This document shows positions 4,440 through 43,138 of a DNA stretch of 64,000 bases, one piece after another. The stretch comes from Eutreptiella sp. 'Long Island Sound 2002' (lineage: Eukaryota; Euglenozoa; Euglenophyceae; Eutreptiales; Eutreptiaceae). The notes under the pieces are model-generated. The model saw nothing but the letters and a program-made list of their open reading frames with translations, ran no database searches and was not told where the DNA came from. The DNA is taken from NCBI GenBank assembly GCA_964036045.1, contig OZ038392.1, forward strand, positions 36,159,330-36,223,329, given 5' to 3'. Every line of letters begins with the position of its first letter. Position 1 is the stretch's first letter. Both the position numbers and the translations under genes were made by a program.

Positions 4440-7400
4440 CACAGCAACACAACACACCGAGCGGGCACACCGGTGAACAGGAGCCGGGAGGCCCAGGACA
4501 CCGCACACGCAACACAACACAGAGAGCGGGCACACCGGTGAACAGGAGCCGGGGGGGCCAGGACACCGCACACGCAACACAACATACCGAGCGGGCACAC
4601 CGGTGAACAGGAGCCGGGAGGCCCAGGACACCGCACACGCCACACAACACACCGAGCGGGCACACCGGTGAACAGGAGCCGGGGGGCCCAGGACACCGCA
4701 CACGCCACACAACACACCGAGCGGGCGCACCGTTGAACAGGAGCCGGGAGGCCCAGGACACCGCACGCGCAACACAACACACCGAGCGGGCGCACCGGTG
4801 AACAGGAGCCAGGGGGCCCAGGACACCGCACACGCAACACAACACACCGAGCGCGCACACCGGTGAACAGGAGCCGGGGGGCCCAGGACACCGCACACGC
4901 AACACAACACACCGAGCAGGCACACCGGTGAACAGGAGCCGGGAGGCTCAGGACACCGCACACGCCACACAACACACCGAGCGGGCACACCGGTGAACAG
5001 GAGCCGGGAGGCCCAGGACACCGCACACGCCACACAACACACCGAGCGGGCACACCGGTGAACAGGAGCCGGGAGGCCCAGGACACCGCACACGCAACAC
5101 AACACACCGAGCGGGCACACCGGTGAACAGAAGCCGGGAGGCCCAGGACACCGCACACGCAACACAACACACCGAGCGGGCGCACCGGTGAACAGGAGCC
5201 GGGGGGCCCAGGACACCGCACACGCAACACAACACACCGAGCAGGCACACCGGTGAACAGGAGCCAGGGGGCCCAGGACACCGCACACGCAACACAACAC
5301 ACCGAGCGGGCACACCGGTGAACAGGAGCCGGGAGGCCCAGGACACCGCACACGCCACACAACACACCGAGCGGGCACACCGGTGAACAGGAGCCGGGAG
5401 GCCCAGGACACCGCACACGCCACACAACACACCGAGCGGGCACACCGGTGAACAGGAGCCGGGAGGCCCAGGACACCGCACACGCAACACAACACACCGA
5501 GCGGGCACACCGGTGAACAGGAGCCGGGAGGCCCAGGACACCGCACACGCAACACAACACACCGAGCGGGCGCACCGGTGAACAGGAGCCGGGGGGCCCA
5601 GGACACCGCACACGCAACACAACACACCGAGCGGGCACACCGGTGAACAGGAGCCGGAAGGCCCAGGACACCGCACACGCAACACAACACACCGAGCGGG
5701 CGCACCGGTGAACAGGAGCCGGGAGGCCCAGGACACCGCACACGCGAAACAACACACCGAGCAGGCACGACGGCGAACAGGAGCCGGGAGGCCCAGGACA
5801 CCGCACGCGCAACACAACACACCGAGCGGGCACACCGGTGAACAGGAGCCGGGGGGCCCAGGACACCGCACGCGCAACAAAACACACCGAGCGGGCGCAC
5901 CGGTGAACAGGAGCCAGGGGGCCCAGGACACCGCACACGCAACACAACACACCGAGCGGGCGCACCGGTGAACAGGAGCCGGGGGGCCCAGGACACCGCA
6001 CACGCAACACAACACAGCGAGCGGGCACACCGGTGAACAGGAGCCGGGAGGCCCAGGACACCGCACACGCCACACAACGCACCGAGCGGGCACACGGATG
6101 AACAGGAGCCGGGAGGCCCAGGACACCGCACACGCAACACAACACACCGAGCGGGCACACCGGTGAACAGGAGCCGGGAGGCCCAGGACACCGCACACGC
6201 CACACAACACACCGAGCGGGCACACCGGTGAACAGGAGCCGGGAGGCCCAGGACACCGCACACGCCACACAACACACCGAGCGGGCACACCGGTGAACAG
6301 GAGCCGGGAGGCCCAGGACACCGCACACGCAACACAACACACCGAGCGGGCACACCGGTGAACAGGAGCCGGGAGGCCCAGGACACCGCACACACAACAC
6401 AACACACCGAGCGGGCACACCGGTGAACAGGAGCCGGGAGGCCCAGGACACCGCACACGCAACACAACACACCGAGCGGGCGCACCGGTGAACAGGAGCC
6501 AGGGGGCCCAGGACACCGCACATGCAACACAACACACCGAGCGGGCACACCGGTGAACAGGAGCCGGGAGGCCCAGGACACCGCACAAGCCACACAACAC
6601 ACCGAGCAGGCACACCGGTGAACAGGAGCCGGGAGGCCCAGGACACCGCACACGCCACACAACACACCGAGCGGGCACACCGGTGAACAGGAGCCGGGGG
6701 GCCCAGGACACCGCACACGCAACACAACACACCGAGCGGGCACACCGGTGAACAGGAGCCAGGGGGCCCAGGACACCGCACACGCAACACAACACACCGA
6801 GCGCGCACACCGGTGAACAGGAGCCGGGGGGCCCAGGACACCGCACACGCAACACAACACACCGAGCAGGCACACCGGTGAACAGGAGCCGGGAGGCTCA
6901 GGACACCGCACACGCCACACAACACACCGAGCGGGCACACCGGTGAACAGGAGCCGGGAGGCCCAGGACACCGCACACGCCACACAACACACCGAGCGGG
7001 CACACCGGTGAACAGGAGCCGGGAGGCCCAGGACACCGCACACGCAACACAACACACCGAGCGGGCACACCGGTGAACAGAAGCCGGGAGGCCCAGGACA
7101 CCGCACACGCAACACAACACACCGAGCGGGCGCACCGGTGAACAGGAGCCGGGGGGCCCAGGACACCGCACACGCAACACAACACACCGAGCAGGCACAC
7201 CGGTGAACAGGAGCCAGGGGGCCCAGGACACCGCACACGCAACACAACACACCGAGCGGGCACACCGGTGAACAGGAGCCGGGAGGCCCAGGACACCGCA
7301 CACGCCACACAACACACCGAGCGGGCACACCGGTGAACAGGAGCCGGGAGGCCCAGGACACCGCACACGCCACACAACACACCGAGCGGGCACACCGGTG

Positions 7401-10400
7401 AACAGGAGCCGGGAGGCCCAGGACACCGCACACGCAACACAACACACCGAGCGGGCACACCGGTGAACAGGAGCCGGGAGGCCCAGGACACCGCACACGC
7501 AACACAACACACCGAGCGGGCGCACCGGTGAACAGGAGCCGGGGGGCCCAGGACACCGCACACGCAACACAACACACCGAGCGGGCACACCGGTGAACAG
7601 GAGCCGGAAGGCCCAGGACACCGCACACGCAACACAACACACCGAGCGGGCGCACCGGTGAACAGGAGCCGGGAGGCCCAGGACACCGCACACGCGAAAC
7701 AACACACCGAGCAGGCACGACGGCGAACAGGAGCCGGGAGGCCCAGGACACCGCACGCGCAACACAACACACCGAGCGGGCACACCGGTGAACAGGAGCC
7801 GGGGGGCCCAGGACACCGCACGCGCAACAAAACACACCGAGCGGGCGCACCGGTGAACAGGAGCCAGGGGGCCCAGGACACCGCACACGCAACACAACAC
7901 ACCGAGCGGGCGCACCGGTGAACAGGAGCCGGGGGGCCCAGGACACCGCACACGCAACACAACACAGCGAGCGGGCACACCGGTGAACAGGAGCCGGGAG
8001 GCCCAGGACACCGCACACGCCACACAACGCACCGAGCGGGCACACGGATGAACAGGAGCCGGGAGGCCCAGGACACCGCACACGCAACACAACACACCGA
8101 GCGGGCACACCGGTGAACAGGAGCCGGGAGGCCCAGGACACCGCACACGCCACACAACACACCGAGCGGGCACACCGGTGAACAGGAGCCGGGAGGCCCA
8201 GGACACCGCACACGCCACACAACACACCGAGCGGGCACACCGGTGAACAGGAGCCGGGAGGCCCAGGACACCGCACACGCAACACAACACACCGAGCGGG
8301 CACACCGGTGAACAGGAGCCGGGAGGCCCAGGACACCGCACACACAACACAACACACCGAGCGGGCACACCGGTGAACAGGAGCCGGGAGGCCCAGGACA
8401 CCGCACACGCAACACAACACACCGAGCGGGCGCACCGGTGAACAGGAGCCGGGGGGCCCAGGACACCGCACATGCAACACAACACACCGAGCGGGCACAC
8501 CGGTGAACAGGAGCCGGGAGGCCCAGGACACCGCACAAGCCACACAACACACCGAGCAGGCACACCGGTGAACAGGAGCCGGGAGGCCCAGGACACCGCA
8601 CACGCCACACAACACACCGAGCGGGCACACCGGTGAACAGGAGCCGGGGGGCCCAGGACACCGCACACGCAACACAACACACCGAGCGGGCACACCGGTG
8701 AACAGGAGCCAGGGGGCCCAGGACACCGCACACGCAACACAACACACCGAGCGCGCACACCGGTGAACAGGAGCCGGGGGGCCCAGGACACCGCACACGC
8801 AACACAACACACCGAGCAGGCACACCGGTGAACAGGAGCCGGGAGGCTCAGGACACCGCACACGCCACAAAACACACCGAGCGGGCACACCGGTGAACAG
8901 GAGCCGGGAGGCCCAGGACACCGCACACGCCACACAACACACCGAGCGGGCACACCGGTGAACAGGAGCCGGGAGGCCCAGGACACCGCACACGCAACAC
9001 AACACACCGAGCGGGCACACCGGTGAACAGAAGCCGGGAGGCCCAGGACACCGCACACGCAACACAACACACCGAGCGGGCGCACCGGTGAACAGGAGCC
9101 GGGGGGCCCAGGACACCGCACACGCAACACAACACACCGAGCAGGCACACCGGTGAACAGGAGCCAGGGGGCCCAGGACACCGCACACGCAACACAACAC
9201 ACCGAGCGGGCACACCGGTGAACAGGAGCCGGGAGGCCCAGGACACCGCACACGCCACACAACACACCGAGCGGGCACACCGGTGAACAGGAGCCGGGAG
9301 GCCCAGGACACCGCACACGCCACACAACACACCAAGCGGGCACACCGGTGAACAGGAGCCGGGAGGCCCAGGACACCGCACACGCAACACAACACACCGA
9401 GCGGGCACACCGGTGAACAGGAGCCGGGAGGCCCAGGACACCGCACACGCAACACAACACACCGAGCGGGCGCACCGGTTAACAGGAGCCGGGGGGCCCA
9501 GGACACCGCACACGCAACACAACACACCGAGCGGGCACACCGGTGAACAGGAGCCGGAAGGCCCAGGACACCGCACACGCAACACAACACACCGAGCGGG
9601 CGCACCGGTGAACAGGAGCCGGGAGGCCCAGGACACCGCACACGCGAAACAACACACCGAGCAGGCACGACGGCGAACAGGAGCCGGGAGGCCCAGGACA
9701 CCGCACGCGCAACACAACACACCGAGCGGGCACACCGGTGAACAGGAGCCGGGGGGCCCAGGACACCGCACGCGCAACAAAACACACCGAGCGGGCGCAC
9801 CGGTGAACAGGAGCCAGGGGGCCCAGGACACCGCACACGCAACACAACACACCGAGCAGGCACACCGGTGAACAGGAGCCGGGGGGCCCAGGACACCGCA
9901 CACGCAACACAACACAGCGAGCGGGCACACCGGTGAACAGGAGCCGGGAGGCCCAGGACACCGCACACGCCACACAACGCACCGAGCGGGCACACGGATG
10001 AACAGGAGCCGGGAGGCCCAGGACACCGCACACGCAACACAACACACCGAGCGGGCACACCGGTGAACAGGAGCCGGGAGGCCCAGGACACCGCACACGC
10101 CACACAACACACCGAGCGGGCACACCGGTGAACAGGAGCCGGGAGGCCCAGGACACCGCACACGCCACACAACACACCGAGCGGGCACACCGGTGAACAG
10201 GAGCCGGGAGGCCCAGGACACCGCACACGCAACACAACACACCGAGCGGGCACACCGGTGAACAGGAGCCGGGAGGCCCAGGACACCGCACACACAACAC
10301 AACACACCGAGCGGGCACACCGGTGAACAGGAGCCGGGAGGCCCAGGACACCGCACACGCAACACAACACACCGAGCGGGCGCACCGGTGAACAGGAGCC

Positions 10401-11530
10401 GGGGGGCCCAGGACACCGCACATGCAACACAACACACCGAGCGGGCACACCGGTGAACAGGAGCCGGGAGGCCCAGGACACCGCACAAGCCACACAACAC
10501 ACCGAGCAGGCACACCGGTGAACAGGAGCCGGGAGGCCCAGGACACCGCACACGCCACACAACACACCGAGCGGGCACACCGGTGAACAGGAGCCGGGGG
10601 GCCCAGGACACCGCACACGCAACACAACACACCGAGCGGGCACACCGGTGAACAGGAGCCAGGGGGCCCAGGACACCGCACACGCAACACAACACACCGA
10701 GCGCGCACACCGGTGAACAGGAGCCGGGGGGCCCAGGACACCGCACACGCAACACAACACACCGAGCAGGCACACCGGTGAACAGGAGCCGGGAGGCTCA
10801 GGACACCGCACACGCCACACAACACACCGAGCGGGCACACCGGTGAACAGGAGCCGGGAGGCCCAGGACACCGCACACGCCACACAACACACCGAGCGGG
10901 CACACCGGTGAACAGGAGCCGGGAGGCCCAGGACACCGCACACGCAACACAACACACCGAGCGGGCACACCGGTGAACAGGAGCCGGGGGGCCCAGGACA
11001 CCGCACACGCAACACAACACACCGAGCGGGCACACCGGTGAACAGGAGCCGGGAGGCCCAGGACACCGCACACGCAACACAACACACCGAGCGGGCACAC
11101 CGGTGAACAGGAGCCGGGGTCCCAGGACACCGCACACACAACACAACACACCGAGCGGGCACACCGGTGAACGGGAGCCGGGTGGCCCAGGACACCGCAC
11201 ACGCAACACAACACACCGAGCAGGCACACCGGTGAACAGGAGCCGGGAGGCCCAGGACACCGCACACGCAACACAACACACCGAGCGGGCACACCGGTAA
11301 ACAGGAGCTGGGAGGCCCAGGACACCGCACGCGCAACACAACACACCGAGCGGGCACACCGGTGAACAGGAGCCGGGAGGCCCAGGACACCGCACACGCC
11401 ACACAACACACCGAGCGGGCACACCGGTGAACAGGAGCCGGGAGGCCCAGGACACCGCACACGCAACACAACACACCGAGCGGGCACACCGGTGAACAGG
11501 AGCCGGGAGGCCCAGGACACCGCACACACG
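4440..11530 (+). repeat. 65-bp satellite array (~109 monomers) with 1950-bp higher-order repeat
   Basis: The monomer contains CACCGGTGAACAGGAGCC, GGCCCAGGACACCGCACAC and AACACAACACACCGAGC. Monomer variants recur with a period of exactly 1950 bp (30 monomers). The same variant junctions occur at 4923, 6873, 8823 and 10773, and the same deviant monomer cluster at about 5708, 7658 and 9608. Higher-order copies are nearly identical while monomers within one copy differ at several positions. The very long Cys/Pro-rich open frames on the minus strand exist only because a stop-free 65-bp unit cycles through all frames. The array lies inside the 3' region of a LINE-type insertion. Confidence 0.97.
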
Positions 11531-20646: not shown

Positions 20647-20651
20647 TAAAA

Positions 20652-20674
20652 CTTAGCCCACGCAAACTGCACCC
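20652..20674 (+). repeat. Left terminal inverted repeat of the DNA transposon
   Basis: Begins CTTAGCCCACGC and is an exact inverted match of 27490-27512. It is preceded by TAAAA. Confidence 0.9.
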
Positions 20675-21217
20675 CCCTTTTGGAAGAGAAGGACCTAAAA
20701 AATGACCGCCTGAAAAACTATTTTTTTTGGACATTTGCAACACACATGACCCAGATACCACCGAAAAAATACAATTTTACCCGATTTGCTGCTTTTTTCC
20801 ACTTTTTGTTTTTTAAAATAAACTATTATTTTGTCTGATTTGAAGGGTGTGTTTTACCAATCTTGTCGTTTTTGTATTTCAAAACCCAACTGGTGTGTGC
20901 CTGTTCGGGAGCTCATTTTCAAAAATGACATTCTGCAGGTCTCCAGTTGCACCTATGTTTGTGATGCGAAATAAATTGCTTTTTTATGTCCCTGAGTGCG
21001 CGAGGCCTCGCGCACTCAAGGTCATGGAAACAATTGTGTAAGAAGGGAACAAAAACAAGACATGAAGCACACAACATATGAACACTGAAATAAAAGCTCG
21101 GCAAAAATGTACAAGCCCTTAAGGGCATATAATTGCATTCGCGTCGAAGGCGAGTGCGCGAGGCCTCGCGCACACATGACTGCAAAAACCAGGAGAAACA
21201 CTTGGGTTAATGGTGGA

Positions 21218-21757
21218 TTACTTCTTCTTCGGTCCAGCAACCTTAGACAACCTTGAACCCAGGCTTCTTGCCACCGCACTTGTCCCACTTGGAGAGGCAA
21301 CGGTACCACGAGACGGCTGGGCACCAGAACGCGAGGGCGGCTTGAACTCTGCACTAGCGGTGGCTGCAGTCTTTGCTTTCTTCTTCGGCTGTTCCTTACC
21401 AGATGCGGGGATTGCATCGAAGTGAGCGGCGGCTGCCCGCTTGCGCTTCTGCTGGGTCTCCAGTACTTGCTCCGGATCCTCTTCTTCCTCCTCCTCGTCA
21501 GTATCATCGTCGTCCGATTCCGTGGGCTTGTCCGATTCCTTCTCGTTTCCTTTGGCCTGCTTCTTGCTACTCGAGGGGGTTCCCTTTCCGGCTGCAGTAC
21601 CCTGAGTTGGTATAACTTTGGCAGTCTTCTTCACCTTGGCTTGCATTGGCAAAGTAGGTGCAGGCGCAACAGGCTCAGTGTCGTCAGCGGGGGCCTCAGT
21701 CACGACATCTTCCTGGACGGCCTCTGCAGCGTGCACCTGCTGGTGCCCTTCATGCCC
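21218..21757 (-). CDS. Acidic/basic tail of transposon gene 2, downstream of an in-frame TGA
   Basis: The frame of gene 2 continues open for about 179 codons after a TGA at 21758-21760. It starts GHEGHQ, passes through an acidic run (DDDDTDEEEEEE) and basic stretches (KRKRA, KKKAK) that look like nuclear localisation signals, and ends KVAGPKKK. The truncated second copy at 28164-28658 encodes the same sequence, also directly after a TGA at the same position, so the extension is or was real coding sequence. Whether the TGA is read through, marks a separate ORF, or is a shared disabling mutation is open. The stop is followed by two palindrome copies in the 3' untranslated region. Confidence 0.6.
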   Translation of the reverse strand, partial: GHEGHQQVHAAEAVQEDVVTEAPADDTEPVAPAPTLPMQAKVKKTAKVIPTQGTAAGKGTPSSSKKQAKGNEKESDKPTESDDDDTDEEEEEEDPEQVLETQQKRKRAAAAHFDAIPASGKEQPKKKAKTAATASAEFKPPSRSGAQPSRGTVASPSGTSAVARSLGSRLSKVAGPKKK

Positions 21758-24167
21758 TCAGTTGCTGTCCAAAACCCACAGTGGAATGCCACGCTGAAGC
21801 CACTCTTCTTGAGTATCCCAAGGTGCAGCTGTTGCTCCCTGCTCCGTCTGATCAGCCTCCAACATGTACCGCATGATGATTGCATGCTGCAGAGCACCTC
21901 CAACGGCATTCCCAAGGTCCTTTTGCTTGATCGTTGACACAGCCAAAAACGCCACTTTAGTACGGAGGTCAGACATCGCAATTTTTGCGGCCATGGCAGG
22001 CGTGTCGTCCACAACAACCACTGCATCAGAATACCCACTGCCCAAAAAATATTTGTCCAGGTACCACAGCACGTGAATCAGAGGCATGAAACCGCCAAGG
22101 TTCTTTTTCTGCATCTCTTCAGAATGTCCAGCGGAATACGACACATAGTTCGGCAACTGTAAATGTGATGTATAAAGACGCATAACGGAGGCAGCAGTGC
22201 GCGAGGCCTCGCGCACACAACGGCATCGTAACAGGCGAAAGAAGCAGATATACCTGCTTATCCCAGCGACTCGTTGTTCCCATCCACATACAGTGCTCGT
22301 CGAACTGATACGTACTGCTGGTCACGGGACCCGATAACCAAGAGTATACCGGCAACCGAACATGGTAGAATGGCACTGTGGTTGGATCCTTGTCCTTCTC
22401 CATACGCCAGAGCCTCTGGATGTCGTGGCCAATACGGTGCACAACATCAGCCTCGCCATAGAAAATGAGGTCTTTCCCCAGCATCATCACATCGAACAGC
22501 CACTTCGGAACAAATCCTGCAGTGTCATATTCAACGAAAAGGTCAGCGTTGATGACCCACAATGGGTACTGCAGATCCCGGAAACGGGCTGGCGGTATCT
22601 CTTCAATATCCTCAATACGGCACGCCGTCAAAGAGAATTTGCTCCCTTGCTCGTCCTGCTTGGAGACATTGATCACATCGCCAGTACTCAGCTGTGTCTG
22701 TGACGCTGCCGATGATGGTGCCTCAGTCTTCCTTTGCAGTTGTTTCCGCACGGCCAGCGTCTGTGGTAATGGAGGTGCGCCCTTGTCCCCAGTCCGCCAC
22801 AGAGGTGCATTGAGCAACGTCTTCCATTTTGGCCACGGCGACCGATACCTCGTACTTGTATCCGGCCAGTAACCCCAATTTCCCAGCCCAATTTTCAGTT
22901 GCGGCGTGCCCAGTGCTGCGACTTCTGCTCGGATCTTCGCATCGGCAGCTGTACGGATGTGAAAACGGTGGTTGAGTGCGCGAGCCCTCGCGCACTGAAG
23001 CTGCGACACTGACGCATACCTGCCGTCTGGTTGACATACTGCTTATTGTCCGGATGGTCAAGATGGAAAGTAACCCATTGATCCGTAATCTGCGCGTCAA
23101 TGTAGTTCTGGGTGGTGTGTAAGGTCGAGTCCTTCAGGTTCATGTGCGCACAGACTTTCCGCAATAAGCTCGGTAGGTGCAGCCCCTCCAGCTTCTTGAA
23201 GGCATTCCTTGTAACCTCATCTTTCCTGCTCTTATTCTCGAGGTTCTTCATGCCAGTAACCGCCTCACGACCGCAGTAATACGCCAGGGAGAAGATGTCC
23301 CTCCAGTTCTTGAATGTCGAGTCCTACGAGGGAAAACAATGCCATGGAGTGCGCGAGGCCTCACGCATCATAACCGTGCGATACACGAATACATACTGTG
23401 TGTCCTGCTTCCTCCAAAGCCTCGGGTGCAAGAAACGCAGAGTTGATGGCGGCCTGGGCAACAGCAGTCTTGAACCGCTCGAACTCTTGTGGTTCTTTTT
23501 CCCGCTTCTGGTCCTCAATGTACAACAACATGTTGTCCAGTGCCTCGGACAGCGGAATCCATGTCACAGACTGGCTGCCAGCTTGTTGCAGTCCTGCAAC
23601 CTTGGCCCGGATCCTCCAAGGTGTTTCGTACTTCAGAATGTCAACATAGCAAAACTCCTGCCAGTCCTCCAATTCTTTGCCTTCTGCGAGACGCAGTTCC
23701 TGAATCTTTCTGCATGTTTCTGTGCCATGCTGACCATTCAGAACGTAAAGTGAGCCATCTGCAAAGCAAACCATGTACGGAAGCAAAGAGAAGAAACGTC
23801 TTCGATGGAACGCGAAGCGAGTCATACCACTATCCTCCCACGCCGTTACGCGCAACGGTCCAGCTGGTGGCAGTGCTTGGTATCCCATCACTTTCCTGGC
23901 AACATCGTCATAGTTGATGGATCGGATCTGTCCGCGCTCCTTGGTCTTGTCAACTCTCAAATCAGCAATCTTTACCTTCACGGCTTTACCATTCTCCTGC
24001 GGCAACCACTGTTGCACGTCGACTGTGAGCTTCATCTCCGGTATTGGCTTCTTCTCACCCTTCTTCTTGCGTCCTTTCTTCGGCGTGTCCCCTTGGTCGG
24101 TCCCTGGTGACGACTCCATGGCCTCTGTGTCTGGTGCTGGACGTTCTGGCGACCCTGGTTCACTCAT
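21758..24167 (-). CDS. Transposon gene 2, four exons, unknown protein
   Basis: Exons are complement(23397-24167, 23020-23323, 22254-22948, 21758-22156). All junctions are GT...AG with matching phases 0, 1 and 0: ACA|gtatgt...cgtag|GAC, GCAG|gtatgc...tacag|CT, CAG|gtatat...tacag|TTG. The start MSEPGSPERPAP is chosen as the first Met of an open frame 67 bp after the stop of gene 1. The ~720-residue product has a Lys-rich N-terminal part (KKGRKKKGEKK), then globular sequence with LYVLNGQHGTETCRKIQEL, FKNWRDIFSLAYYCG and PLWVINADLFVEYDTAGF, ending VLDSN before TGA. I do not recognise the family. A DNA-binding or replication-related role is only a guess from the transposon context. Each intron is 71-97 bp and carries one palindrome at its centre. 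Confidence 0.75.
22157..22253 (-). other. Intron 3 of transposon gene 2, palindrome-centred
   Basis: 97 bp, GTATAT donor and TTTACAG acceptor, phase 0. The palindrome at 22196-22217 is centred within about 2 bp of the intron midpoint. Confidence 0.85.
22949..23019 (-). other. Intron 2 of transposon gene 2, palindrome-centred
   Basis: 71 bp, GTATGC donor and CGTACAG acceptor, phase 1 on both sides. The palindrome at 22975-22996 (one mismatch) is centred within about 2 bp of the midpoint. Confidence 0.88.
23324..23396 (-). other. Intron 1 of transposon gene 2, palindrome-centred
   Basis: 73 bp, GTATGT donor and CCTCGTAG acceptor, phase 0. A slightly decayed palindrome at 23348-23369 is centred within about 2 bp of the midpoint. 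Confidence 0.88.
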
Positions 24168-24233
24168 GATGCCAAACGATACCTAAGAAGGGCAAATGGC
24201 ACGACTTGAAACACAGTCATTGGAACTCTGAAA

Positions 24234-25937
24234 TCAGTCGAAACGGTATTTTGCAGGTCGTTTTCGCACATCTGTTCCACAACTATCTCTGTTGTGACTT
24301 AATCTAAGGCACTTAGCGAACTACTCAGTGCGCGAGGCCTCGCGCACTCACATCGCATTACATACCTGTTTTTCGCAACGTTTAGTGTGCGAGGCCTCGC
24401 GCACTGCGGGCGTCTGTTACCGCAAGCGTTGCCGCACGTTGCGTGTTGCTGCTTCCTGTCTGTCGGCATCCATATCTTTTCTCCGCCCCACAACAGCATT
24501 CAGTTTCCGTTTCAGTTGGTTGGTGGGATTTGTTTTCTGGTCAATGAGGGCATCCAGTACGCTGTGACCAAGTGGCCGGTAGTGGTCGTAACCAAGGAGT
24601 TATGTAGGTGAGGTTGGAAATCTTGGTAACCTCCGCAGCCACGAAGTTGCAACGGTGCTGACTCTGGCCGACTCCCACTCCACATACGCCATGCGAATTC
24701 GGTCTGTAGCCAAAAATCTTGTCAGTCGTTGTCGCATGCTGTGTACCAGGTTCTTGGGAACGTTTTGCAACCCCACGTGTTTGCCACCAGGACCAACCTT
24801 TAGTAACAAGTAATGGTTTTCGACCTCCTCAACAGTAACAGAACCCGTGTTTCTCGCCTTGTCCCGCACCAACTTGCTCAACATCCCTTCTCCAAACTCC
24901 TCTGAGTTTGCCTGACCGGGCAGGTCCTGGTGCCACTTGCTGTTGTACAGCAATGTGCACATGATCGTGCGTTCGTACTTCAGTACGGTGTCACACGGTC
25001 CTCGACGCAGCCTCCTCAACAGACACAAACTCAACTGCAACACCTCCTGAGCTCGTGACCCTGTACCGTTGTTTTCGCCTGACCAGTTGCATTCCCGTAC
25101 CACGTGGCCCAAGTACAACAACAACGGGCACCATTCCGACAACAAATGCAAGACTGCGTTTGCCACTGCTGCCCTGTTGGCATGCGCAGTGTCACGACCA
25201 CTGATCGCGGTTGCAGCTTGTGCCTTGCGCCGATACGGGCGTAGTATTCGGGGGGTGGCAAGCATCAGCGCAGCAATAGTTTTTTCCATAACTATCAGTT
25301 TGGGGTATGATAGTATGGTGGAACCAGGTCGTAGCAGACCTTTCCGTAGGTAGGTTAGAATGGGCCAGAACACCCGAAAAGTATGAGTAACAACGAACTT
25401 GTAGGCATGCCAGACACCGTAAACTACAGGCACGTAACGCAGGTACGCACGCATGTTCCATCGTTGGTTCTTGGCACCGTACAACAACTTTAGTATCCTG
25501 CAGTGTATGTTTTCGTCAACCAACAGCGGTAAAACTCTGTTTGTCTGTTGCGCTACGTCCTTTGCAAAGTGTAACAAGTTTAACAGACCAACACCACCAG
25601 TTACCTTTTCTTTTGACAGGGCAAACGGGCGCCACACCGGTGCCTGCACGGTCGTTGCATCCCTCCTCACATCCAACGGTGCTCTCACGTTTCCGGTGTC
25701 TGGTGTACACCCATCTGCATACCCCATGTCACGCAAAGTCTGGGGGATTCTTCGTTCACGTTGTTGCAGAGCCCTTGCCACTGTCGTTATCCGCACTGCC
25801 AGGTCCTCAACGGCTGGATGTCCTGCCCAATACGTGGGCCTCTGCTTCAGTTGAAGTACTGCCATTGCAGTACATTTTTGTGACCGGTCACTTTCGTCTG
25901 GGTGTGTCGTGTATTGTGCCCGGTACCAGTTGTCTAT
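24234..25937 (-). CDS. Transposon gene 1, main part (candidate transposase), with an in-frame TAA
   Basis: After a TAG at 25938-25940 the same frame is open to a TAA at 24600-24602 and continues as coding-like sequence (LLGYDHYRPLGHSVLDALID ... ATRNVRQRLR). It then meets two adjacent palindrome introns (24304-24420); splicing them out joins it to a short C-terminus ending KYRFD with TGA at 24234-24236. Visible motifs include DNWYRAQYTTHPDESDR, PLLVDENIHCRILKLLYG, RYVPVVYGVWHAYKFV and HLLSEWCPLLLYLGHVV. The DEN...YGVWH...HLL..W spacing of acidic residues could be a DDE/D-type catalytic core, but I could not assign the residues. It is the likeliest transposase because the element has only two genes. 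No frameshifts are present, only stops. Confidence 0.6.
24304..24420 (-). other. Two directly adjacent palindrome-centred introns in transposon gene 1
   Basis: Intron a (24366-24420, 55 bp) runs gtaaca...aaacag with the palindrome at 24384-24405. Intron b (24304-24365, 62 bp) runs gtatgt...ccttag with the palindrome at 24327-24348. The acceptor of a touches the donor of b (cag|gtatgt), leaving no exon between them. Removing both keeps an open frame. They could also be spliced as one 117-bp intron. Confidence 0.6.
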
Positions 25938-26414
25938 CTACAGCACGCAACACGACGAAAGCACCAGTGACCACGTTGCTTTAAGTGCTGCTGCTGCCTG
26001 TTCGTCCACTGTATCTGTGGCATCGTCTGCTTGCCCAAGTCGTACTTTTGTTCGTCTTTCTGTTTGTGTTGGGTACCCTGTTTTGTTTCCTGGTTTTTTC
26101 CTGTTTGCTACTGCCCGTTGACGCATCAACAGGTACAGGTTCCAGCCCTCCTGTCGCAAAATGCGCACCCAGCGCTTGTCCTCCTGCCTTTTAGCTGCTG
26201 GTAAACTGTGGCGCGTTCTTTTGTTGAAGCTGAGTCGCTGTGCAAATTGTAACAACAGTTGCGCCGCCAGGTCGTTTCGTTTGAGTCCTTTCCACAGGTC
26301 GTCTGCTGTTTGGTATGCTGGTTCTGCCGCGCATGCCTCTCGTAGTGCTGCTGCTCCTTTGCTTACTTCTGCTATCATCTGATGCGTTACGGATTTTCTG
26401 CCTCGAAGTGGCAT
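25938..26414 (-). CDS. Transposon gene 1, N-terminal segment ending in an in-frame TAG
   Basis: A 158-residue open frame in the same frame as the downstream part. It starts MPLRGRKSVTHQMIAEV and includes AAQLLLQFAQRLSFNKRTRH and a basic segment. It ends SSCCVL before TAG; the codons after the TAG (IDNWYRAQY...) look like continued coding sequence. It may be the N-terminus of the candidate transposase with a nonsense mutation or a read-through stop. The start is the first Met of the frame. Confidence 0.5.
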   Translation of the reverse strand: MPLRGRKSVTHQMIAEVSKGAAALREACAAEPAYQTADDLWKGLKRNDLAAQLLLQFAQRLSFNKRTRHSLPAAKRQEDKRWVRILRQEGWNLYLLMRQRAVANRKKPGNKTGYPTQTERRTKVRLGQADDATDTVDEQAAAALKATWSLVLSSCCVL

Positions 26415-27489
26415 TTTGCGTCTTTCTCTGTGGAATTAGATTTACGCACATATTTTGGTTATCGTTTCGCACAGCGATCTTTAAAAACAATGTGTTTTAA
26501 AACATCTGGCCTTTTCCTGTCGTCATTTCTGGTGCGCGTGTTGCCGCCGCAGATTGTATTTGGTGTCTGCGTGCGCTCCGTTCCCAGTAACCGAAAACCG
26601 TTTTCGCAACCACAATTTCCTATTCTGTTTCCTTTTGTAAACCCAGTTGGAAAAAAAAACCATATCTATCGGGCAGTGAAGGCTACGGCCGCTATTAGAA
26701 CCGGACACGTCTGCCATTGAGTGGCTGTTGGAAAAAAGCAAATCATTCCCCTGATCCCCTGAAAAATATGACGAAGGTTACCGATGTATAATCGACTGTC
26801 ACAGGTGGTAGCCGCGAAAGGGAATGTAAATACCGGCATGCCTCACCTGACCTGCCTGCTTTTTCATTTACTTCCGTCATTTGAGTGCGCGAGGCCTGGC
26901 GCACTGATTGTTTCCGTCGGACAATGTTCTATGCCTTGTTATATCTGACCAACATGGTGTCTACACACACATACACCCGAAAAATCAAATGTGTTTGTTT
27001 GTCTGGTACCGTACCTACAATTGTACGCGTTATTTCCATTCTGCAATATCAATACATAACGTGACCTGAATGCGCGAGGCCTCGCGCGTTCAGGGTGCCT
27101 AAATTTGTATTTTATTTTCACTTTACAGTATATGTGTTTCCCCTAACATGGGAAGTCGGACAGTCCTACACTTCCAATGCTCCGTGGGCAACACAGTCCT
27201 ACTTTTAATACCGTGTACCGAGCTGCGTATTTCCGCAAACGCCAGTCCTTACGGGTGTTTGGGTTTCGTGATAAACTCTACTTTGAACATCTTGAGTGCG
27301 CGACGCCTCGCGCACTCAGAACGCCAGAGAAATGTAAAAAACGTCGCATTGAGGAGCGCGGAGTTGCACAACACTAAAAAAGCAATTTATTTCCCTACGT
27401 CTAAAATCACGTTCATCAAACATCCAAAAAAATGGTTTTTTTGCCCCGTTGCGAACCGGTCGTTTTCTGCGTGTTCGGCGCGCAAAACA
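26415..27489 (-). other. 5' untranslated region of the TIR transposon
   Basis: No substantial ORF. It carries three palindromes (26884-26905, 27069-27090, 27295-27316), each with one mismatch or G-T wobble. Promoter elements could not be pinned down. Confidence 0.55.
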
Positions 27490-27512
27490 GGGTGCAGTTT
27501 GCGTGGGCTAAG
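27490..27512 (-). repeat. Right terminal inverted repeat of the DNA transposon
   Basis: Ends GCGTGGGCTAAG, followed by TAAAA; exact inverted match of 20652-20674. Confidence 0.9.
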
Positions 27513-27517
27513 TAAAA

Positions 27518-27970
27518 GGAAAATTGATATAACAATAAATTCTCATTAAAAAGGCAATAAAACCTATATTTTAGCAACTTTCTGAGTAGTCTATCTTATC
27601 ACAGGTCTTGTCAATATTACGTGAATTGCTGTCGACGGCAAAAGATGGCGACAGTCGCGACAGGCCATCTGAAGCTTCCAAATAGCTTCAAAATAGCTTC
27701 TAATACATTAGAACCTTCTAAAATGCTATAAAACATGATTGAATCACATTATAAGCATATGGGATGTGATTATTCATGTATGGCTAGTAATGTATCCTAG
27801 ATCTGTGCTCTCTGTAGTGTACCTAAGAGCAGTAGAGTCTAGCAGCAAGCTATAGGCTTGGAATATAAGCCAAATATGAGCAAATATCCTAGTGTTCTAG
27901 GATCTTGAAGCTTGGAGAGGTCTAGTACAGATCCTGCAGAAAGCTTCTGAGAGGCCGAAATGCCCTGACT
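27518..27970. other. AT-rich spacer between two TIR-transposon copies
   Basis: About 450 bp without coding potential, containing diverged AAATAGCTTC repeats near 27670-27710. Confidence 0.5.
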
Positions 27971-29262
27971 TATTACAGTGTCAGCGATCAAGCAAAAGGA
28001 CCTTAGCAATGCCGTTGGAGGTGCTCGGCAGCATGCCATCGTCATGTGGTACATGTTGGAAGACGATCAGATGGATCACAAAGTGACAGGTGCAACTAGG
28101 GATACTCAAGAACACTGGCTTTTGCGTGCCATTCCACTCCGGGTTTCTGATAGCGACTGAGGTCACGAAGGGCACCAGAAAGTGCATGTTGCAGAAGCTG
28201 CCCAAGAACAGATCGTGTCTGAGGCACCCGGTGACAAGAATGAGTCTATTGCGCCTAAGCCTGCACCTACCCTGCCCAAGCTGAAGAAGACTGCCCAAGT
28301 TGTACCAACTCAGGGTACTGCAGCAGGAAAAGGAACCCCCTCAGGTAGCAAGAAGCCGGCAAAAGAAAAAGGAAACGAATTTGACAAGGCGGAAGAAACA
28401 GACGATGAGGATGGCGACGAGGAGGAGGAGGAAGAGGATATGGATCAAATAATGGAGACCAAGCAGAAGCGGAAGCGGGCGCCCGCCTCTCACTTTGATG
28501 CAAGTCCCGATGATGCGGGTAGGGACCAGCCAAAGAAGAAAGCGAAGACTGCTGCAAGTGCAAATGCAGAGTTCAAGCCGCCATCGTGTTCTGGTGATCA
28601 GCCATCCGTGGTACGATTGCCTCCCCGATCGGGGGAGGCACAGTGGCAAGAAACCTGAATTCCAGGTTGGCTAAGGTGGCAGAACCGAAGAAGAAGTAAG
28701 TGACGAGTTACAAAGGTGTTTTTTTCTTTTTTTGCAGTCATGTGTGCGCGAGGTCTCGCGCACTCGCCCTTGACGCGAATGCATTTATATACCCTTAAGG
28801 GCTTGTACATTTTTGCAAGCTGTTGTTTCAGTGGTTTCATGTAATGCATTTCGTGTCCTGTTTTTGTTGCCTTATGTCCACAATGGTTTCCACGACCTCG
28901 AGTGCGCGAGGCCTCGCGCACTGAGGGACAGAAAAAAAGGATTTATTTCGCAACTCACACTTTGTTACCACTGGTGTTCTACATAATTACATTTTCGAAA
29001 TTCGTATTTTCAAATGGTAGGTGCTTGCGGGGTTTTGAAATACAAAAACAACAACATTCGCAATACCGACCCTTCAAATCAATCCAAATAACATTTATTT
29101 CTGACAAACAAAATCTTCAAAAAACCACCGAATCGCGTGAAAAACCGTTTTTTTAGTGGTGTCTGATTCATAGGTTTTGTAAATGTCCGAAAAATAGTTT
29201 TTTCGGTTGCCATTTTTTGTGTCCGCCCCTTCCAAAAGGGGGTGCTGTTTGCGCCTGCTAAG
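27971..29262 (+). mobile_element. 5'-truncated relative of the TIR transposon, opposite orientation
   Basis: From GTGTCAGCGATCAAGC onward the sequence is collinear with the last exon, tail, two 3' palindromes and right end of the first element, but on the plus strand. It ends in GTTTGCGCCTGCTAAG at 29262, four mismatches from the 23-bp TIR. No opposite TIR was found, so the left part is missing. The last ~105 bp of this copy are also present downstream of the large LINE (54197-54301). Confidence 0.85.
27978..28658 (+). pseudogene. Truncated copy of transposon gene 2 last exon and tail
   Basis: 27978-28163 encodes KQKDLSNAVGGARQHAIVMW through RVSDSD and stops at TGA. The frame then continues GHEGHQKVHVAEAAQE through the acidic run to about 28600, where a frameshift relative to the other copy changes the end; the expected ending AEPKKK is found in another frame at 28670-28695. 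The TGA between the two parts is at the same position as in the full element (21758-21760). Identity to the other copy is roughly 70 percent in the tail by eye. Confidence 0.8.
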
Positions 29263-34551: not shown

Positions 34552-37500
34552 TCAATTCGGCCAAGCACGAATACATGTGACCACCAACCTGTCTGGTGGG
34601 GCCCTCGTACGGCTTGGGCGCTGCAAATCAGCGGCCGAACTCGAAGCTTGGTCCTCATTTGGCTCCTGGGCTGGCCTGACCGCAGGAGGGGGGATCGACG
34701 GATCAGCCCTGGAAGGTGGCTGCTGAGGGCCGTAAAAGGCTGGATCTCGATTCACCACAGGTCTTTTTCCGTCGCTCTCCACCTGTCTGTCAGGTTTCGA
34801 CAGACAGTCTGTCAGGAGTACGCCAATTTCGGGGTGCTTCTTGAGGAAGTCGATGAACCCCTTGGTGTACCCATGGACAAAAGAATGGACTGGTTCCCAG
34901 TTGTTGTGACTGGAATCAAAGCCCCTCCACTCACATAGAAATTCCCATTCGCCCTTTTCGTCACATCTTGCCTCTAAAATCCTCTTGAGTTCGTACTTCC
35001 CCCCTTCGATGACCCGATCGGACAAAAATTTCGAAGTCCAAAAAAGGGGTTTAACCCGATCCTTGGGGGAGGGGATCTCTCTCTTGAGGCGATCGCCCGA
35101 AACTTCAATTTCCCTGCTGACATCCACACGAATCCTCCACCTGTTCTCACCTAGACGCGCTGTAACAGCGAATGGCCCCTCCCACAAGGGAAGAAGCTTA
35201 TCATCTCCGTCCAGGGTGGTTTCGGATTTTCGAAGCCAAACTCGATCATCGACTTCAAAATTGTGGGGGTTTTTTCGGCCTTGATTCTGGACCCAAAGCC
35301 AGTCAGCTTGATGCTTATCGATTAATTTCGAGACAGTTTTTTCTGCTCGTTCGATTTCGTCCAAAAACAACGAAGCATCTTTACAAGGGCGAGGATTATT
35401 CAACGGCATGTTCCACCAACACTTCTTTCGTCCAAAGACAATTTCATTTGGAGAAAGGCCATGGTACAATGGCGTGTTGTGGTAACGGCGAAGCAATGCG
35501 AAGAGAACTTCAAGCCAATGGAAGTCTTTCTCACTGGCGAGCTCCTTACGAAGCATATTTATAACAGAGCGGCCGGCTCTTTCGCCAGGCAGCGCTCGAT
35601 GTGAGTGGATTTCACATCTCAGGTGGTGGATTCCAAGGCGAGCACATAATTCCTTCCACCATTCGGAGGTGTACTCTTTGCCTGAGTCCGTAACCACCTC
35701 GGATGGGACGTCCCAACCTCCCATCCAGGTCTGCGCGCACCATTTGGCGGCAGCTTTGCCAGTCATTGACTCGACGTTGCAAGGCAACACCTGAATGTAG
35801 CCAGAATGACGGCATTGTATAAGGAGCACTCCATTGACCTTTTTGTTGGTCCAATGGCACTCTTCGTCGTCGAGTTCACCAAGATGGAAAAAATCACTGG
35901 TGACTCTGTTAAAGAGGCGCTCCGGAATAGGATGTGGCCTCAGATGGCCGTGCTTCTTCGCGCTGGGGGGCGTCGAGACAGCACATTGGGCACATCCGGC
36001 GGCTACTTTCATACAATGAGTATATAGCCTTGAGCCGAACAACCTATGTTTAATCATCGACCATAATCTACGGCCATGTGCGTGGGGGGACTCCCATTTG
36101 TGCCACCAGTTTAACACTGGGGGGGCCAGGGCGTCTGGTACGCACAATTTACCCTCCATCCACAGCTTCCCCCCATCCAACGAATATTCAGAATAAATTC
36201 CATCCTTGTGAGCATCTTTGGATTTGAGATTCTCAAAGACCTCTTTAAACATGGAATCATGCAGATAATCATTCGTCCAGTCACGGATGATAAGGGAATC
36301 TTTCGGCAGGGGTGGAGTTTTGGCCGGATCTCGACGCTTAATGCCCTGAATCAACCGAAATCCACTTACAGGTGGGGTATACTCGAACCGTTTCACACTC
36401 CCTGAGGAGGGATCGGTGACTTTCTCCACGACTTTCAGTGATTTGGTGATAATCTCATGGGCATGCGCCGGATCTGAGAAGGCCGTGATATCATTACACG
36501 GTAATGCGTGCTGTTTAACAGAGCATTGCATGCATTCACGTCGAATGAGCTTTTTTTCTTCTTGATCCCACTCGATTACGACGTGGCGGTCCTGCTCCGT
36601 ACCATGGATGTTGGTACTTTGCAGCCCCTCTGAAGCGGGGTAAGCCCATCGGCTCAGAGCATCCGCTACCGTGTTGTGTTTTCCAGGCAAATACGACACA
36701 TGGAGGTCAAACAAACTGAGAAATTCATGCCATCTGGCCCGTCGACCAGCTGGGCTCGCGACAGTATCAATGTGTTCGGTGGCCCAATACTCCAGAGATG
36801 GATGATCCGTTAGGACCTCAACTCGATTGGTGCCAACCCACGATTGGTACTTCTTCAGAGCGCAGATTATGGCATATGTCTCTTGCTCACGCGGTGACCA
36901 TTGCATCTGGCGTGGAGCTAGCTTCCGAGACCAAAATGCAAGAGGGTAATGATCACCTGTGGCTTCATCAACCTGTTCAAGGACAGCTCCGATCGCGTAC
37001 CTAGAAGCGTCGGTTCTTATGTAGAAGGGTCGGTCGAATTTCGGCACATGCAACGTGGCGACTTCGCAGAGGGCCGCCTTCAAGTGATGGAAGGCCTCCT
37101 CGCACTCGTCAGTCCACTTGACACGAACCTTTGAACCTGCCTTGCCCGCATCTCTCCCTACCTTCAATAGTTCAGTGAGGGGGGCAGCAAATTTGGCATA
37201 ATTCGGCACAAAAGTGTGGTAAAAATTGCAACAACCCAGGAATCCTCTGAATTCCGTGATCGTCTCAGGGCGCTTCCACTTCTGAATAGCGACGAGCTTC
37301 CCTGGACTGGGTCGTCGGGTGCCATTATCAAGGAGAGAACCACAAAATTCGACTGATTTTAAAAATAGTTTTCCCTTCTTTGGCCCACAAATCAGCTGAT
37401 TGGCATCAAGAATGTCCAAAACCTGGTTCAGCTGCTTTTCATGTAAGGCCACCAGCTCGGCTTCGGTCAGTCCCTCCCCCTCTGTCGCGATGATTATGTC

Positions 37501-39735
37501 ATCTATGTACACACTCACGAAGGCACGCAGCTCAGGATGAGCTGTAAAAAGCACATCCTCCATCATTCTTTGAAAAAACGAAGGCGCGTTCTTCAGGCCC
37601 ATGGGCATGACCGTCCACTGGACTGGGCCACATGGCGTGCACATACAGGTGAGAGGTCGGCTGTCCTTCCTCAACGGCATTTGGTGAAAGCCGTGACGGA
37701 GATCCAGCACAGAAAACAAACGACCTCTTGCCCTCTTGGCGATTTCCTCCTCAATGAGGGGCAGGGGGTGTGAATCCGCCTTGGTTTCGGCGTTGAGGTT
37801 GCGAAAATCAACAACCATTCGCCAACCATCAATGGTGTTCTGGTCTGCAGGCGGCGGCTTCGGGACTGTGAAGGGTGCACAGCACCACTCGCTGGTCATA
37901 CAACCCTCAAGCCAACCAAATTCCCTGAGATTTCTCTCGATTATTTTTCTGAGTATCTCATGTTTCTGTCCATGGTTCTCATAAGGACGCTGTTTCTTCG
38001 CCTTGTACCCTTCACGAAGCTCGATGAAGGCTTCACCCAACTGCCCACGGACAGGGGGGTTTTTGATCAACTTCCCCGAAAGGGTTGTGTCCTTCCGTTC
38101 CTCAAAAATCTTGTCTCTTTTCTTGGAACACAACTCAGTGTCCACCTGATCGCCAGGAATTACTGTCGAAAAAACTTTGGCGATTTCTTCGGCCTTGGCA
38201 GGAAGAATCTTCTTACGGATGTCCCTAAAAAGGTCCGTATCAACTGCCTCTTGAAGATAGGTGGGTCGAGTGTCGACATTCCAGAGATTCTCTTCGTGAT
38301 CCAGCTCCTCGAAAGGATCTATGAAGGCTTCCACACGGGGTTTTTCATAAAAAACTCTGAATTTGCGGCGCGAAGAAAATTTTTTTGTCGTCCGTGCGCC
38401 GTAGATTTTTTTGGATGTAGATCGTATTGGGGAAGAGGGAGACGAGGCGGATCCATTTGACGTTGGATCACCTTGGGCATCTGACGGACAAAAATCAGAA
38501 AAAATAGATTCATCATCAGGACCACGCTCAACCTCAGATTCAGACCCAACACAGGAATCAGTACTAGAATCAGCAGAATCAGAGTCAGAAAGCTTTCCAT
38601 CCACCAGGAATGCAAGCGAACTCCAGGGCCGCTGTGGCAGGGGACCTGTGTCGTCCCTGGCATACAGCTTAATCTTCCTGGGAAGTTCGATGTAATCTAC
38701 ACAAATGTCTTGCAATTCCTGAAACCAAGGCTTGTCGTCCCACAAGGGCACAACTAAAATCGCCTGGGTTTTATCTTGCTTGATTTTGTGGATGACCTGC
38801 CGGATTAAGTGAAACGGAGGATTAATCCATAACTTCTTGTCCCATTTATGGGTCCAAGCGTCGCGAAAGTGCTTGTCAAAGCGCTTGTTCTCGCGGTTAG
38901 CAAAGGCATCACACTGTGGCCAAAAGGAATGGTGTTCATAAAAATATTCACAAATTGTATCGCGCCATTTGTCGACAACTCTGTAGGATGAAGAGTGCCA
39001 GCGCGAAGGACGTCGTGGCTGGGTGTCCCTACGAAGACATTCTAACTCTCGGGAGTAATCGGCACTCCCATTCACCTCTGCAATGGTGACATCTTCGCCA
39101 AACTTTGGTGAAACCTTTTGCTTCAAAAATTCTTCTGCACTTTTAAACCCTGCGTGCAAAAAACGAAATTCAGGACGCTCCAAGGGACCTGACTCCAGCA
39201 AAAAACAACGCCGATGACCTACGGGCGCCACCCTGTTCTTGCGAAGCCAAGGATGGCCCAAGTAAAGGTCATACTTTATGTCGGCACGATAGAAGTAGTC
39301 ATCCTTAAGGATAACTTCCTCCACATTGCCATCTTCCCAAAGGTCTTGAGCGACCAAATGAGTTGATATATAACAACCGCGTTGCCCACCTGCGAGAGAA
39401 TGTCCAGAAACTCCCTCGAGGGTAACAGGATGAGGCGAATCAAACACGCAGTCGTCAGGCAAAAAAGAATTGGATTGGAGATTTACCTCCGATCCATTGT
39501 CACACAAACAAGTGGCGAGGTGGAAATTGCCCTTGCAATCAGAGACCCACAGCTTTGTGACAAACTGACGGGCCCTGTGCTTGGACTGTACACCAACCTC
39601 GTCCACTACAACAGAAGGATCCGCTGCCGGATCCAGGGGAGAGGAGACAAGCGACCCTACATCAAGTAGTGGTCGAGAAGGAATCTGGGGATCATGCCTG
39701 AAATCGCCTGGGGAGGGGCGATTTTCGTGGCTCCC
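34552..39735 (-). CDS. pol: Gypsy Pol polyprotein: protease, methyltransferase-like, RT, RNase H, integrase, chromodomain
   Basis: Numbering from 39606: protease-like CDNGSEVN at ~35-42 (DNG instead of the usual DSG/DTG) with LGHPWL at ~116; a region at ~225-312 with CDAFANREN, LWINPPF, AILVVPLW and PWFQEL, resembling the adenine-methyltransferase-like domain of DIRS elements; RT ~565-720 with FSVLDLRHGFHQMPL and YIDD; RNase H ~860-985 with RTDASRYAIG and NTVADALSRW; integrase with an H/H/C/C zinc finger (~1169-1208) and D1238, D1307, E1342; chromodomain ~1530-1592 (FLCEWRGFDSSHNNWEP). The frame is open without a stop from the codon after the UAG at 39736-39738, so Pol is in the same frame as Gag. 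No ATG lies near the start, which supports read-through expression. Confidence 0.95.
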   Translation of the reverse strand, partial: GSHENRPSPGDFRHDPQIPSRPLLDVGSLVSSPLDPAADPSVVVDEVGVQSKHRARQFVTKLWVSDCKGNFHLATCLCDNGSEVNLQSNSFLPDDCVFDSPHPVTLEGVSGHSLAGGQRGCYISTHLVAQDLWEDGNVEEVILKDDYFYRADIKYDLYLGHPWLRKNRVAPVGHRRCFLLESGPLERPEFRFLHAGFKSAEEFLKQKVSPKFGEDVTIAEVNGSADYSRELECLRRDTQPRRPSRWHSSSYRVVDKWRDTICEYFYEHHSFWPQCDAFANRENKRFDKHFRDAWTHKWDKKLWINPPFHLIRQVIHKIKQDKTQAILVVPLWDDKPWFQELQDICVDYIELPRKIKLYARDDTGPLPQRPWSSLAFLVDGKLSDSDSADSSTDSCVGSESEVERGPDDESIFSDFCPSDAQGDPTSNGSASSPSSPIRSTSKKIYGARTTKKFSSRRKFRVFYEKPRVEAFIDPFEELDHEENLWNVDTRPTYLQEAVDTDLFRDIRKKILPAKAEEIAKVFSTVIPGDQVDTELCSKKRDKIFEERKDTTLSGKLIKNPPVRGQLGEAFIELREGYKAKKQRPYENHGQKHEILRKIIERNLREFGWLEGCMTSEWCCAPFTVPKPPPADQNTIDGWRMVVDFRNLNAETKADSHPLPLIEEEIAKRARGRLFSVLDLRHGFHQMPLRKDSRPLTCMCTPCGPVQWTVMPMGLKNAPSFFQRMMEDVLFTAHPELRAFVSVYIDDIIIATEGEGLTEAELVALHEKQLNQVLDILDANQLICGPKKGKLFLKSVEFCGSLLDNGTRRPSPGKLVAIQKWKRPETITEFRGFLGCCNFYHTFVPNYAKFAAPLTELLKVGRDAGKAGSKVRVKWTDECEEAFHHLKAALCEVATLHVPKFDRPFYIRTDASRYAIGAVLEQVDEATGDHYPLAFWSRKLAPRQMQWSPREQETYAIICALKKYQSWVGTNRVEVLTDHPSLEYWATEHIDTVASPAGRRARWHEFLSLFDLHVSYLPGKHNTVADALSRWAYPASEGLQSTNIHGTEQDRHVVIEWDQEEKKLIRRECMQCSVKQHALPCNDITAFSDPAHAHEIITKSLKVVEKVTDPSSGSVKRFEYTPPVSGFRLIQGIKRRDPAKTPPLPKDSLIIRDWTNDYLHDSMFKEVFENLKSKDAHKDGIYSEYSLDGGKLWMEGKLCVPDALAPPVLNWWHKWESPHAHGRRLWSMIKHRLFGSRLYTHCMKVAAGCAQCAVSTPPSAKKHGHLRPHPIPERLFNRVTSDFFHLGELDDEECHWTNKKVNGVLLIQCRHSGYIQVLPCNVESMTGKAAAKWCAQTWMGGWDVPSEVVTDSGKEYTSEWWKELCARLGIHHLRCEIHSHRALPGERAGRSVINMLRKELASEKDFHWLEVLFALLRRYHNTPLYHGLSPNEIVFGRKKCWWNMPLNNPRPCKDASLFLDEIERAEKTVSKLIDKHQADWLWVQNQGRKNPHNFEVDDRVWLRKSETTLDGDDKLLPLWEGPFAVTARLGENRWRIRVDVSREIEVSGDRLKREIPSPKDRVKPLFWTSKFLSDRVIEGGKYELKRILEARCDEKGEWEFLCEWRGFDSSHNNWEPVHSFVHGYTKGFIDFLKKHPEIGVLLTDCLSKPDRQVESDGKRPVVNRDPAFYGPQQPPSRADPSIPPPAVRPAQEPNEDQASSSAADLQRPSRTRAPPDRLVVTCIRAWPN

Positions 39736-42768: not shown

Positions 42769-43138
42769 GCTGATTGTTATCCGGCAAAAAATCCCAGTCT
42801 ATGAAGAAAATTGATGCGGATATTCCTAAGTACATCTGAGTGTCCATATCTATCTGGAAAGATTTATAAAAATCCGATTGTGAAAAAATATTTGGCCGAT
42901 CTGGCTCGCGCACGCGCGTCAGCGGCAATTGGCGATTCCGGGTAAATGATCGGAACGCGGCGGATTTACGATGAATGGACCGCGGAATCAGATCCGGCAC
43001 ATCAGAAATATATAGGTCTGAACCTGAGACTGAGCTGCGGGGCGGCGATTCCGCCGAAGCAGAAAAAATGGCCAAAATGTAGCCAATCTGGGGCAGATCT
43101 GCGAAAATCTGAGCAGATGGGGGTGAGCCGCACTTACA
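42605..43138 (-). repeat. 5' LTR of the gypsy element
   Basis: 534 bp, TG...CA ends, with the host duplication CCCAC at 43139-43143. It contains the upstream Gag Met at 42768. Confidence 0.95.
43006..43016 (-). promoter_or_regulatory. Possible TATA box in the LTR
   Basis: The minus strand reads CCTATATATTT within the LTR, about 240 bp upstream of the LTR-internal Gag Met. The second LTR has the same sequence near 32671-32681. Confidence 0.4.

Follow-up and report, generated by a model that had tools for sequence, protein, structure and literature searches.

An 18-bp palindrome, TGCGCGAGGCCTCGCGCA, whose core contains four CpG dinucleotides, was found at ten dispersed sites, all of them outside the exons, in an abundant 6.86-kb DNA transposon of Eutreptiella sp. 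'Long Island Sound 2002'. The transposon lies in a stretch of 64,000 nucleotides (contig OZ038392.1, positions 36,159,330 to 36,223,329 of the forward strand; assembly GCA_964036045.1), referred to here as the window. It has 23-bp terminal inverted repeats (TIRs), 5-bp target-site duplications and two genes, which encode a predicted transposase (gene 1) and an uncharacterised second protein (gene 2). The sequence of the palindrome, its placement, its conservation, its family-specific symmetric edges and its presence in gene-less copies of the element were observed directly. Together these features suggest that the palindrome acts in cis as a dispersed DNA site, the most likely binder being a symmetric dimer of a protein encoded by the element, a reading to which we would give a probability of approximately 0.7. 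A preliminary description of the window had noted palindromes at the centres of introns and had offered an introner-like self-propagating unit, a structural aid to splicing, or a binding site excluded from exons as explanations; the last of these appears to be the best supported.

Distribution and conservation of the palindrome

When up to 3 mismatches were allowed, 12 matches to the palindrome were obtained in the window, compared to an expectation of 0.02, and all were located within 20997-28920. Ten belonged to the full-length element (20652-27512, 6861 bp, genes on the minus strand). Three were upstream of gene 1 (27297-27314, the nearest to the 5' end at 198 bp; 27071-27088; and 26886-26903, which was kept in 11/11 copies), two were in the spacer between the genes (24386-24403, just past the gene 1 stop codon, and 24329-24346), three were in introns of gene 2, and two were downstream of gene 2 (21155-21172 and 20997-21014, 503 bp and 345 bp from the 3' end, respectively). 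No site fell within the 4706 bp of exonic sequence, a total that counts the probable intron N of gene 2 as exon (chance 9e-6). All 14 perfect half-sites in the element belonged to the ten palindromes, which occurred as single dispersed copies, 57 to 2500 bp apart, and not as same-orientation tandem arrays. The preliminary description had mentioned neither the five terminal palindromes, nor the two in a truncated copy nearby, nor intron N.

The three intronic sites were located in intron A (73 bp, phase 0, 23396-23324; palindrome at 23350-23367), intron B (71 bp, phase 1, 23019-22949; palindrome at 22977-22994, with a variant centre) and intron C (97 bp, phase 0, 22253-22157; palindrome at 22198-22215), all on the minus strand. 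Each of these introns had GT-AG ends and, as had been described previously, the stated length and one palindrome near its midpoint; the centre of the palindrome was 1.5 bp from the midpoint. Given the non-exonic placement of the sites, the chance that each of these three introns would contain exactly one site was 0.01 in a post hoc test. These introns, which were predicted from the DNA, are supported by boundaries conserved in 11 copies, by proteins that read through them and by the introns of a second family.

Conservation was analysed in 11 full copies of family 1, consisting of the window element and ten relatives of 6847-6863 bp; these ten were the loci with a full-length match among 20 that were fetched, the other ten being dropped. 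All ten sites were recognisable (≤3 changes in 22 bp) in 11/11 copies, and in each of the six non-coding compartments the sites diverged less than the sequence around them. The pairwise difference inside and outside the sites was, respectively, 0.026 and 0.056 upstream of gene 1, 0.029 and 0.056 in the spacer, 0.008 and 0.081 in intron B, and 0.000 and 0.036 in intron C. Proteins that read through an intron were also compared. Their sequences were compatible with the palindrome (≤2 forced mismatches) in 65/72 cases for intron C and 25/27 for intron B, with the match at one offset in 62/65 and 19/25 of these, respectively; such a match was found inside an aligned exon in 0/122 proteins.

The 2.28-Gb genome contained 10,135 exact copies of the palindrome, compared to none for the reversed control. 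The sites sampled were 26 of the first 50 listed, all from one contig, the other 24 lying in four clusters that were left out. All 26 were in this transposon group and none was in another gene: eight were in family 1 copies, seven in family 2 and three in a third family, and of those in gene-less copies one had the ends of family 1 around it and seven had those of family 2.

Family 2 (represented by locus L043) was 41% identical to family 1 in gene 1, over the 253 columns compared; for gene 2, with intron N excluded, the identity was 32% over 829 columns. Its gene 2 had introns at the same places and in the same phases as introns A, B and C of family 1 (72, 74 and 67 bp, respectively), together with a fourth intron, N, of 73 bp. 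Judged from these alignments, introns A, B and C are old and predate the split of the two families. Introns A and C of family 2 carried the exact palindrome, intron N carried it with 2 mismatches, and the spacer had two sites, with 0 and 1 mismatches; overall, 6/8 introns of the two families contained a site. The expectation that the palindromes would track the introns in homologous elements held for three introns in each family (A, B and C in family 1; A, C and N in family 2) and failed for the remaining two of the eight.

The families differed at the edges of the palindrome. In ten loci of family 1 the base adjoining the core was G on 197/202 half-sites; in seven loci of families 2 and 3, gene-less copies included, it was T or A on 52/52. 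The change affected both halves, as would be expected if a symmetric binder had shifted its preference.

Gene-less copies retained the palindromes as well. The element at locus L034, of 1212 bp, had the TIRs of family 1 and was flanked by the duplication AAGGA. One of its three palindromes was located at 200 bp from the 5' end, and the other two were at 346 and 502 bp from the 3' end, compared to 198, 345 and 503 bp in the full element. Its two ends had identities of 0.73 and 0.69 to those of the full element, while shuffled sequences had a mean of 0.63 and reached 0.72 and 0.69; the excess visibly sat in the TIRs and palindromes, and the intervening DNA was near chance. Two further gene-less elements of 1709 bp (L013 and L042) each contained four palindromes; their duplications were TTTGA and ACTTA, and their TIRs, which differed from those of family 1 and began CTTAGGCGGCTCAAGTTGC, also ended the family 2 copies L035, L037 and L039. 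No frame in L034 or L042 was longer than 173 codons, and the sites there therefore do not serve the splicing of a gene of that copy.

Interpretation and alternative explanations

In the proposed mechanism the gene 2 product would be the first choice as binder and the transposase the second. Sites would be absent from exons because coding sequence cannot carry 18-22 fixed bases, and the short introns of gene 2 would be old, ordinary GT-AG introns in which a site can sit inside a gene. The protein would mark or coat the whole length of the element and would act in trans, on gene-less copies as well as full ones, and its binding might either open chromatin that had been silenced, in the manner of VANC21 on VANDAL21, or assemble the ends for the transposase; the gene-less copies fit both an anti-silencing and a transposition-aid role. 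That a protein binds, which protein it is and what its binding does are points that we infer. If they are correct, the element would offer a natural and testable address system, in which gene 2 would supply the candidate protein and the palindrome the candidate site, gene-less copies would use those sites as well, and families with different site edges coexist in one nucleus; it would also be a specific example of introns that may be retained for their capacity to hold a DNA site. The description of the element as a genome parasite that marks itself by an address code of palindromes is put forward tentatively, and we would sooner expect it to fail than to hold.

Several observations weigh against the binding of the palindrome by an element-encoded protein. 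The centring of the sites in introns A, B and C, which was reached in 0/100,000 random placements (a post hoc comparison), is unexplained by a binding site. No recognisable site was present in 2/8 introns, namely intron N of family 1 and intron B of family 2, the latter having the outer arms only, with 9 mismatches to the core; sites were also missing from 7/72 read-through proteins for intron C and 2/27 for intron B, including the most distant, P0243 (49%). The difference in divergence was moderate in intron A (0.040 inside the site, 0.059 outside) and small downstream of gene 2 (0.029 and 0.038), and the 11 copies share recent ancestry, so the pairwise values are not independent. With respect to the candidate binder, searches of gene 2 against Pfam, NCBIfam and PHROGs gave nothing significant and no known DNA-binding family, and the structure model of gene 2 exon 1 was unusable (mean pLDDT, the predicted local distance difference test score, 37.8) and was set aside. 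Finally, the binder could be a host protein.

A host factor, for example one involved in silencing, CpG sensing, replication or transcription, might bind the palindrome, with the element using or suffering that binding. The persistence of an unchanged four-CpG core between families with so little identity in either gene is consistent with this explanation, as is the presence of the palindrome in gene-less copies. In contrast, the edges of the site differ by family within one genome, and the location of all 26 sampled sites in a single transposon group would be unusual for a host factor, although looser host-factor sites would escape the search; we therefore regard a host factor as unlikely. 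A function of the palindrome as RNA, in which an intron hairpin aids splicing or hairpins in the transcript control processing, appears more doubtful still. In predicted folds the palindromes formed stems of 7-9 bp with a 4-nt loop, the sites were at the intron centres in family 1, and the spacer piece 24365-24304 folded better than most shuffled sequences (z -2.49, 5/200). However, introns A, B and C folded no better than shuffles (z -0.81, -0.97 and -0.37, respectively), and in the predicted folds of introns B and C the first five intron bases, that is, the 5' splice site, were paired. The complementarity of the intronic sites also stopped at or near the palindrome; on this extent and on the comparison with shuffled folds, end-to-end intron hairpins were rejected. 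Furthermore, gene-less copies keep the sites, two introns do without one, and the centring was absent in family 2, with offsets of 5.5, 9 and 3.5 nt. The splicing aid of the preliminary description is accordingly left in a weak position.

The introns might instead be copies of a small self-propagating, introner-like unit built on the palindrome, as had also been suggested. The palindrome was indeed found in six of the eight introns of two families, but 7/10 palindromes of the element were outside coding introns, none of the 26 sampled palindromes was in another gene, and no TIR or target-site duplication was seen at the borders of the gene 2 introns. The arms of the introns outside the palindrome were unrelated to one another (11/12 comparisons with p > 0.1, one with p = 0.02), and no recent insertion was seen, since the places and phases of the introns were common to distant families; this proposal is very improbable. 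We consider it equally improbable that the sites are without function and are alike merely because copies in one element convert each other (concerted evolution). The centre variant of intron B, which was present in 11/11 copies, was also one of the two main states of site 21155, where it was found in 5/11 copies, and the states of that site look as if sites convert one another. Conversion without function does not accord with the lower divergence of the sites in all six compartments, with the persistence of the core between families whose surroundings do not align, or with the distances from the ends that were kept in a gene-less copy.

Structure of the element and its surroundings

The two TIRs of the element, in gene orientation, were located at 20652-20674 (3' end, plus strand, CTTAGCCCACGCAAACTGCACCC) and 27490-27512 (5' end, minus strand), and the same ends were found in other copies. 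The target-site duplication TAAAA was read in both flanks, at 20647-20651 and 27513-27517; 5-bp duplications also flanked 10/10 full-length copies and the gene-less elements L034, L013 and L042. The window copy and its relatives combined TIRs with a duplication of constant length, as is expected of a cut-and-paste DNA transposon. At one other locus (L031), an identical 12-bp flank was shared by two element ends 6267 bp apart, an arrangement that resembles a tandem duplication of element and flank. Scans of IMG/VR and GTDB gave no confirmed relative; one exact palindrome was present on an IMG/VR contig (L001:3335-3352), possibly by chance.

In addition to the full element, a truncated and diverged copy containing the end of gene 2 and the 3' terminus was located at 27978-29262 (plus strand). 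It was identical to the first copy at 1016/1310 aligned positions (77.6%), and both of its palindromes (at 28745 and 28903) were kept, one of them with one mismatch, at the same 158-bp spacing as in the first copy. Besides the palindrome, a stretch behind gene 2 with GCCCTTAAGGGC and CTTGTACATTTTTG was unusually similar between 21101-21200 and 28700-28816.

Gene 1 (24417-26414, minus strand) was defined from tblastn, open reading frames and structure. All 665 residues of its homologue P0009 aligned by tblastn to 26414-24420 in a single frame, and gene 1 is therefore one exon of 665 codons that ends at the stop codon TAA (24419-24417); in the window copy it had two in-frame stops. Two introns of 55 and 62 bp that had been claimed for gene 1 were not upheld by this frame. 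The former (24420-24366) starts on the stop codon, the latter follows it without an exon between them, and their palindromes (24386 and 24329, respectively) are in the spacer. The gene 1 product is predicted, as judged from its structure model, to be a transposase with a P/hAT/RAG-like fold. Its sequence gave nothing significant in Pfam, NCBIfam, PHROGs or PDB, and a Foldseek search with the model gave no match at E 0.001. Relatives approximately 40% identical were present on short metagenome contigs (P0106, P0107, P0109, P0110 and P0112), so this family of transposases extends beyond the present host.

Gene 2 (21218-24167, minus strand) had exons at 24167-23397, 23323-23020, 22948-22254 and 22156-21218. 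Intron N (23827-23759, minus strand; 69 bp, in frame, GTATGA...TTTGCAG) contained no palindrome and matched the place of an intron in family 2; leaving it out raised the alignment score from 389 to 405 bits. It is probably a fourth intron, in which case the first exon would be divided into 24167-23828 and 23758-23397. The 722-residue protein used in the library searches includes 23 residues that may be encoded by this intron. In the leader of gene 2, a 5'-leader intron beginning with GTATGT at 24365 could hold the second spacer palindrome. The gene 2 product had basic and acidic stretches, and searches against PDB sequences gave nothing significant; a stretch around LYVLNGQHG may have a likeness to ParB/sulfiredoxin-type domains, which was confirmed by no search. 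In the window copy gene 2 was interrupted by an in-frame TGA at 21758-21760. The truncated copy also had an in-frame TGA, near 28158-28160, and the proteins P0002 and P0003, from other copies, have arginine at the place of these two stops; a change of CGA to TGA at a CpG would account for the stop, and the frame stays open for approximately 180 codons beyond it.

Elsewhere in the window, a long frame on the minus strand at 34555-39735, which matched reverse transcriptase, RNase H, the integrase core and a chromodomain, corresponded to a Ty3-type long terminal repeat (LTR) retrotransposon. A second long frame, at 43127-47761 on the plus strand, had a match to reverse transcriptase and probably represents a non-LTR retrotransposon. 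The region 4951-10797 contained a tandem array of three consecutive 649-codon frames, exactly 1950 bp apart on the minus strand, with a G+C content of 68-69%.

Comparison with known systems

The P element makes 8-bp target-site duplications, and Transib/RAG-type elements make 5-bp ones. Unlike the P element, hAT (Hermes) and RAG1 systems, the present element has a second gene and internal palindromes; it also differs from them in that gene 1 had no sequence match in Pfam or PDB and that its termini are CTTAG. Like the KDZ elements (Zisupton, Dileera and Kyakuja), it is a large eukaryotic DNA transposon with more than one gene. According to the KDZ report (PMC12730594), Zisupton makes 8-bp duplications and KDZ elements are linked with TET/JBP genes; in contrast, the duplications here were of 5 bp, and no TET/JBP domain was found in scans of the profile libraries.

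A likeness to introners, which are short introns with internal symmetry, was also evident. In that literature (PMC9860276, PMC7789003, PMC8469720), sister introns of Hypoxylon have a central 10-nt palindrome, and introners have inverted repeats that extend to both ends of the intron, with related copies present in many genes. Unlike introners so described, the introns of the present element share the palindrome alone and appear to be ancestral, while most of the palindromes are located outside introns.

A search of the open-licence literature gave no description of this design. VANDALs are Mutator-like transposons, a different type from this element. In two reports on VANDAL21 of Arabidopsis (PMC5735166, PMC10398659), the protein VANC21 binds a motif in introns and in intergenic and terminal non-coding regions of the transposon and brings about a loss of DNA methylation. 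The motif, YAGTATTAY, is present in same-orientation tandem arrays and hardly in coding regions, related VANDAL families use different versions of it, and the binder is encoded by a second gene of the element (PMC5735166, PMC10398659). As in VANDAL21, the motif of the present element is confined to non-coding parts (10/10 sites, three of them in introns); in contrast to the tandem arrays of VANDAL21, it is a palindrome of 18 bp whose copies occur singly and dispersed. For VANDAL21 both the binding and the anti-silencing have been proven, and the element described here is likened to it by the placement of its sites in the sequence. If this likeness is borne out, self-protection or mobilisation by means of dispersed non-coding motifs would extend to an unrelated type of transposon. 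VANDAL21 appears to be the closest described case for site placement, an analogy that implies no claim of membership in that group.

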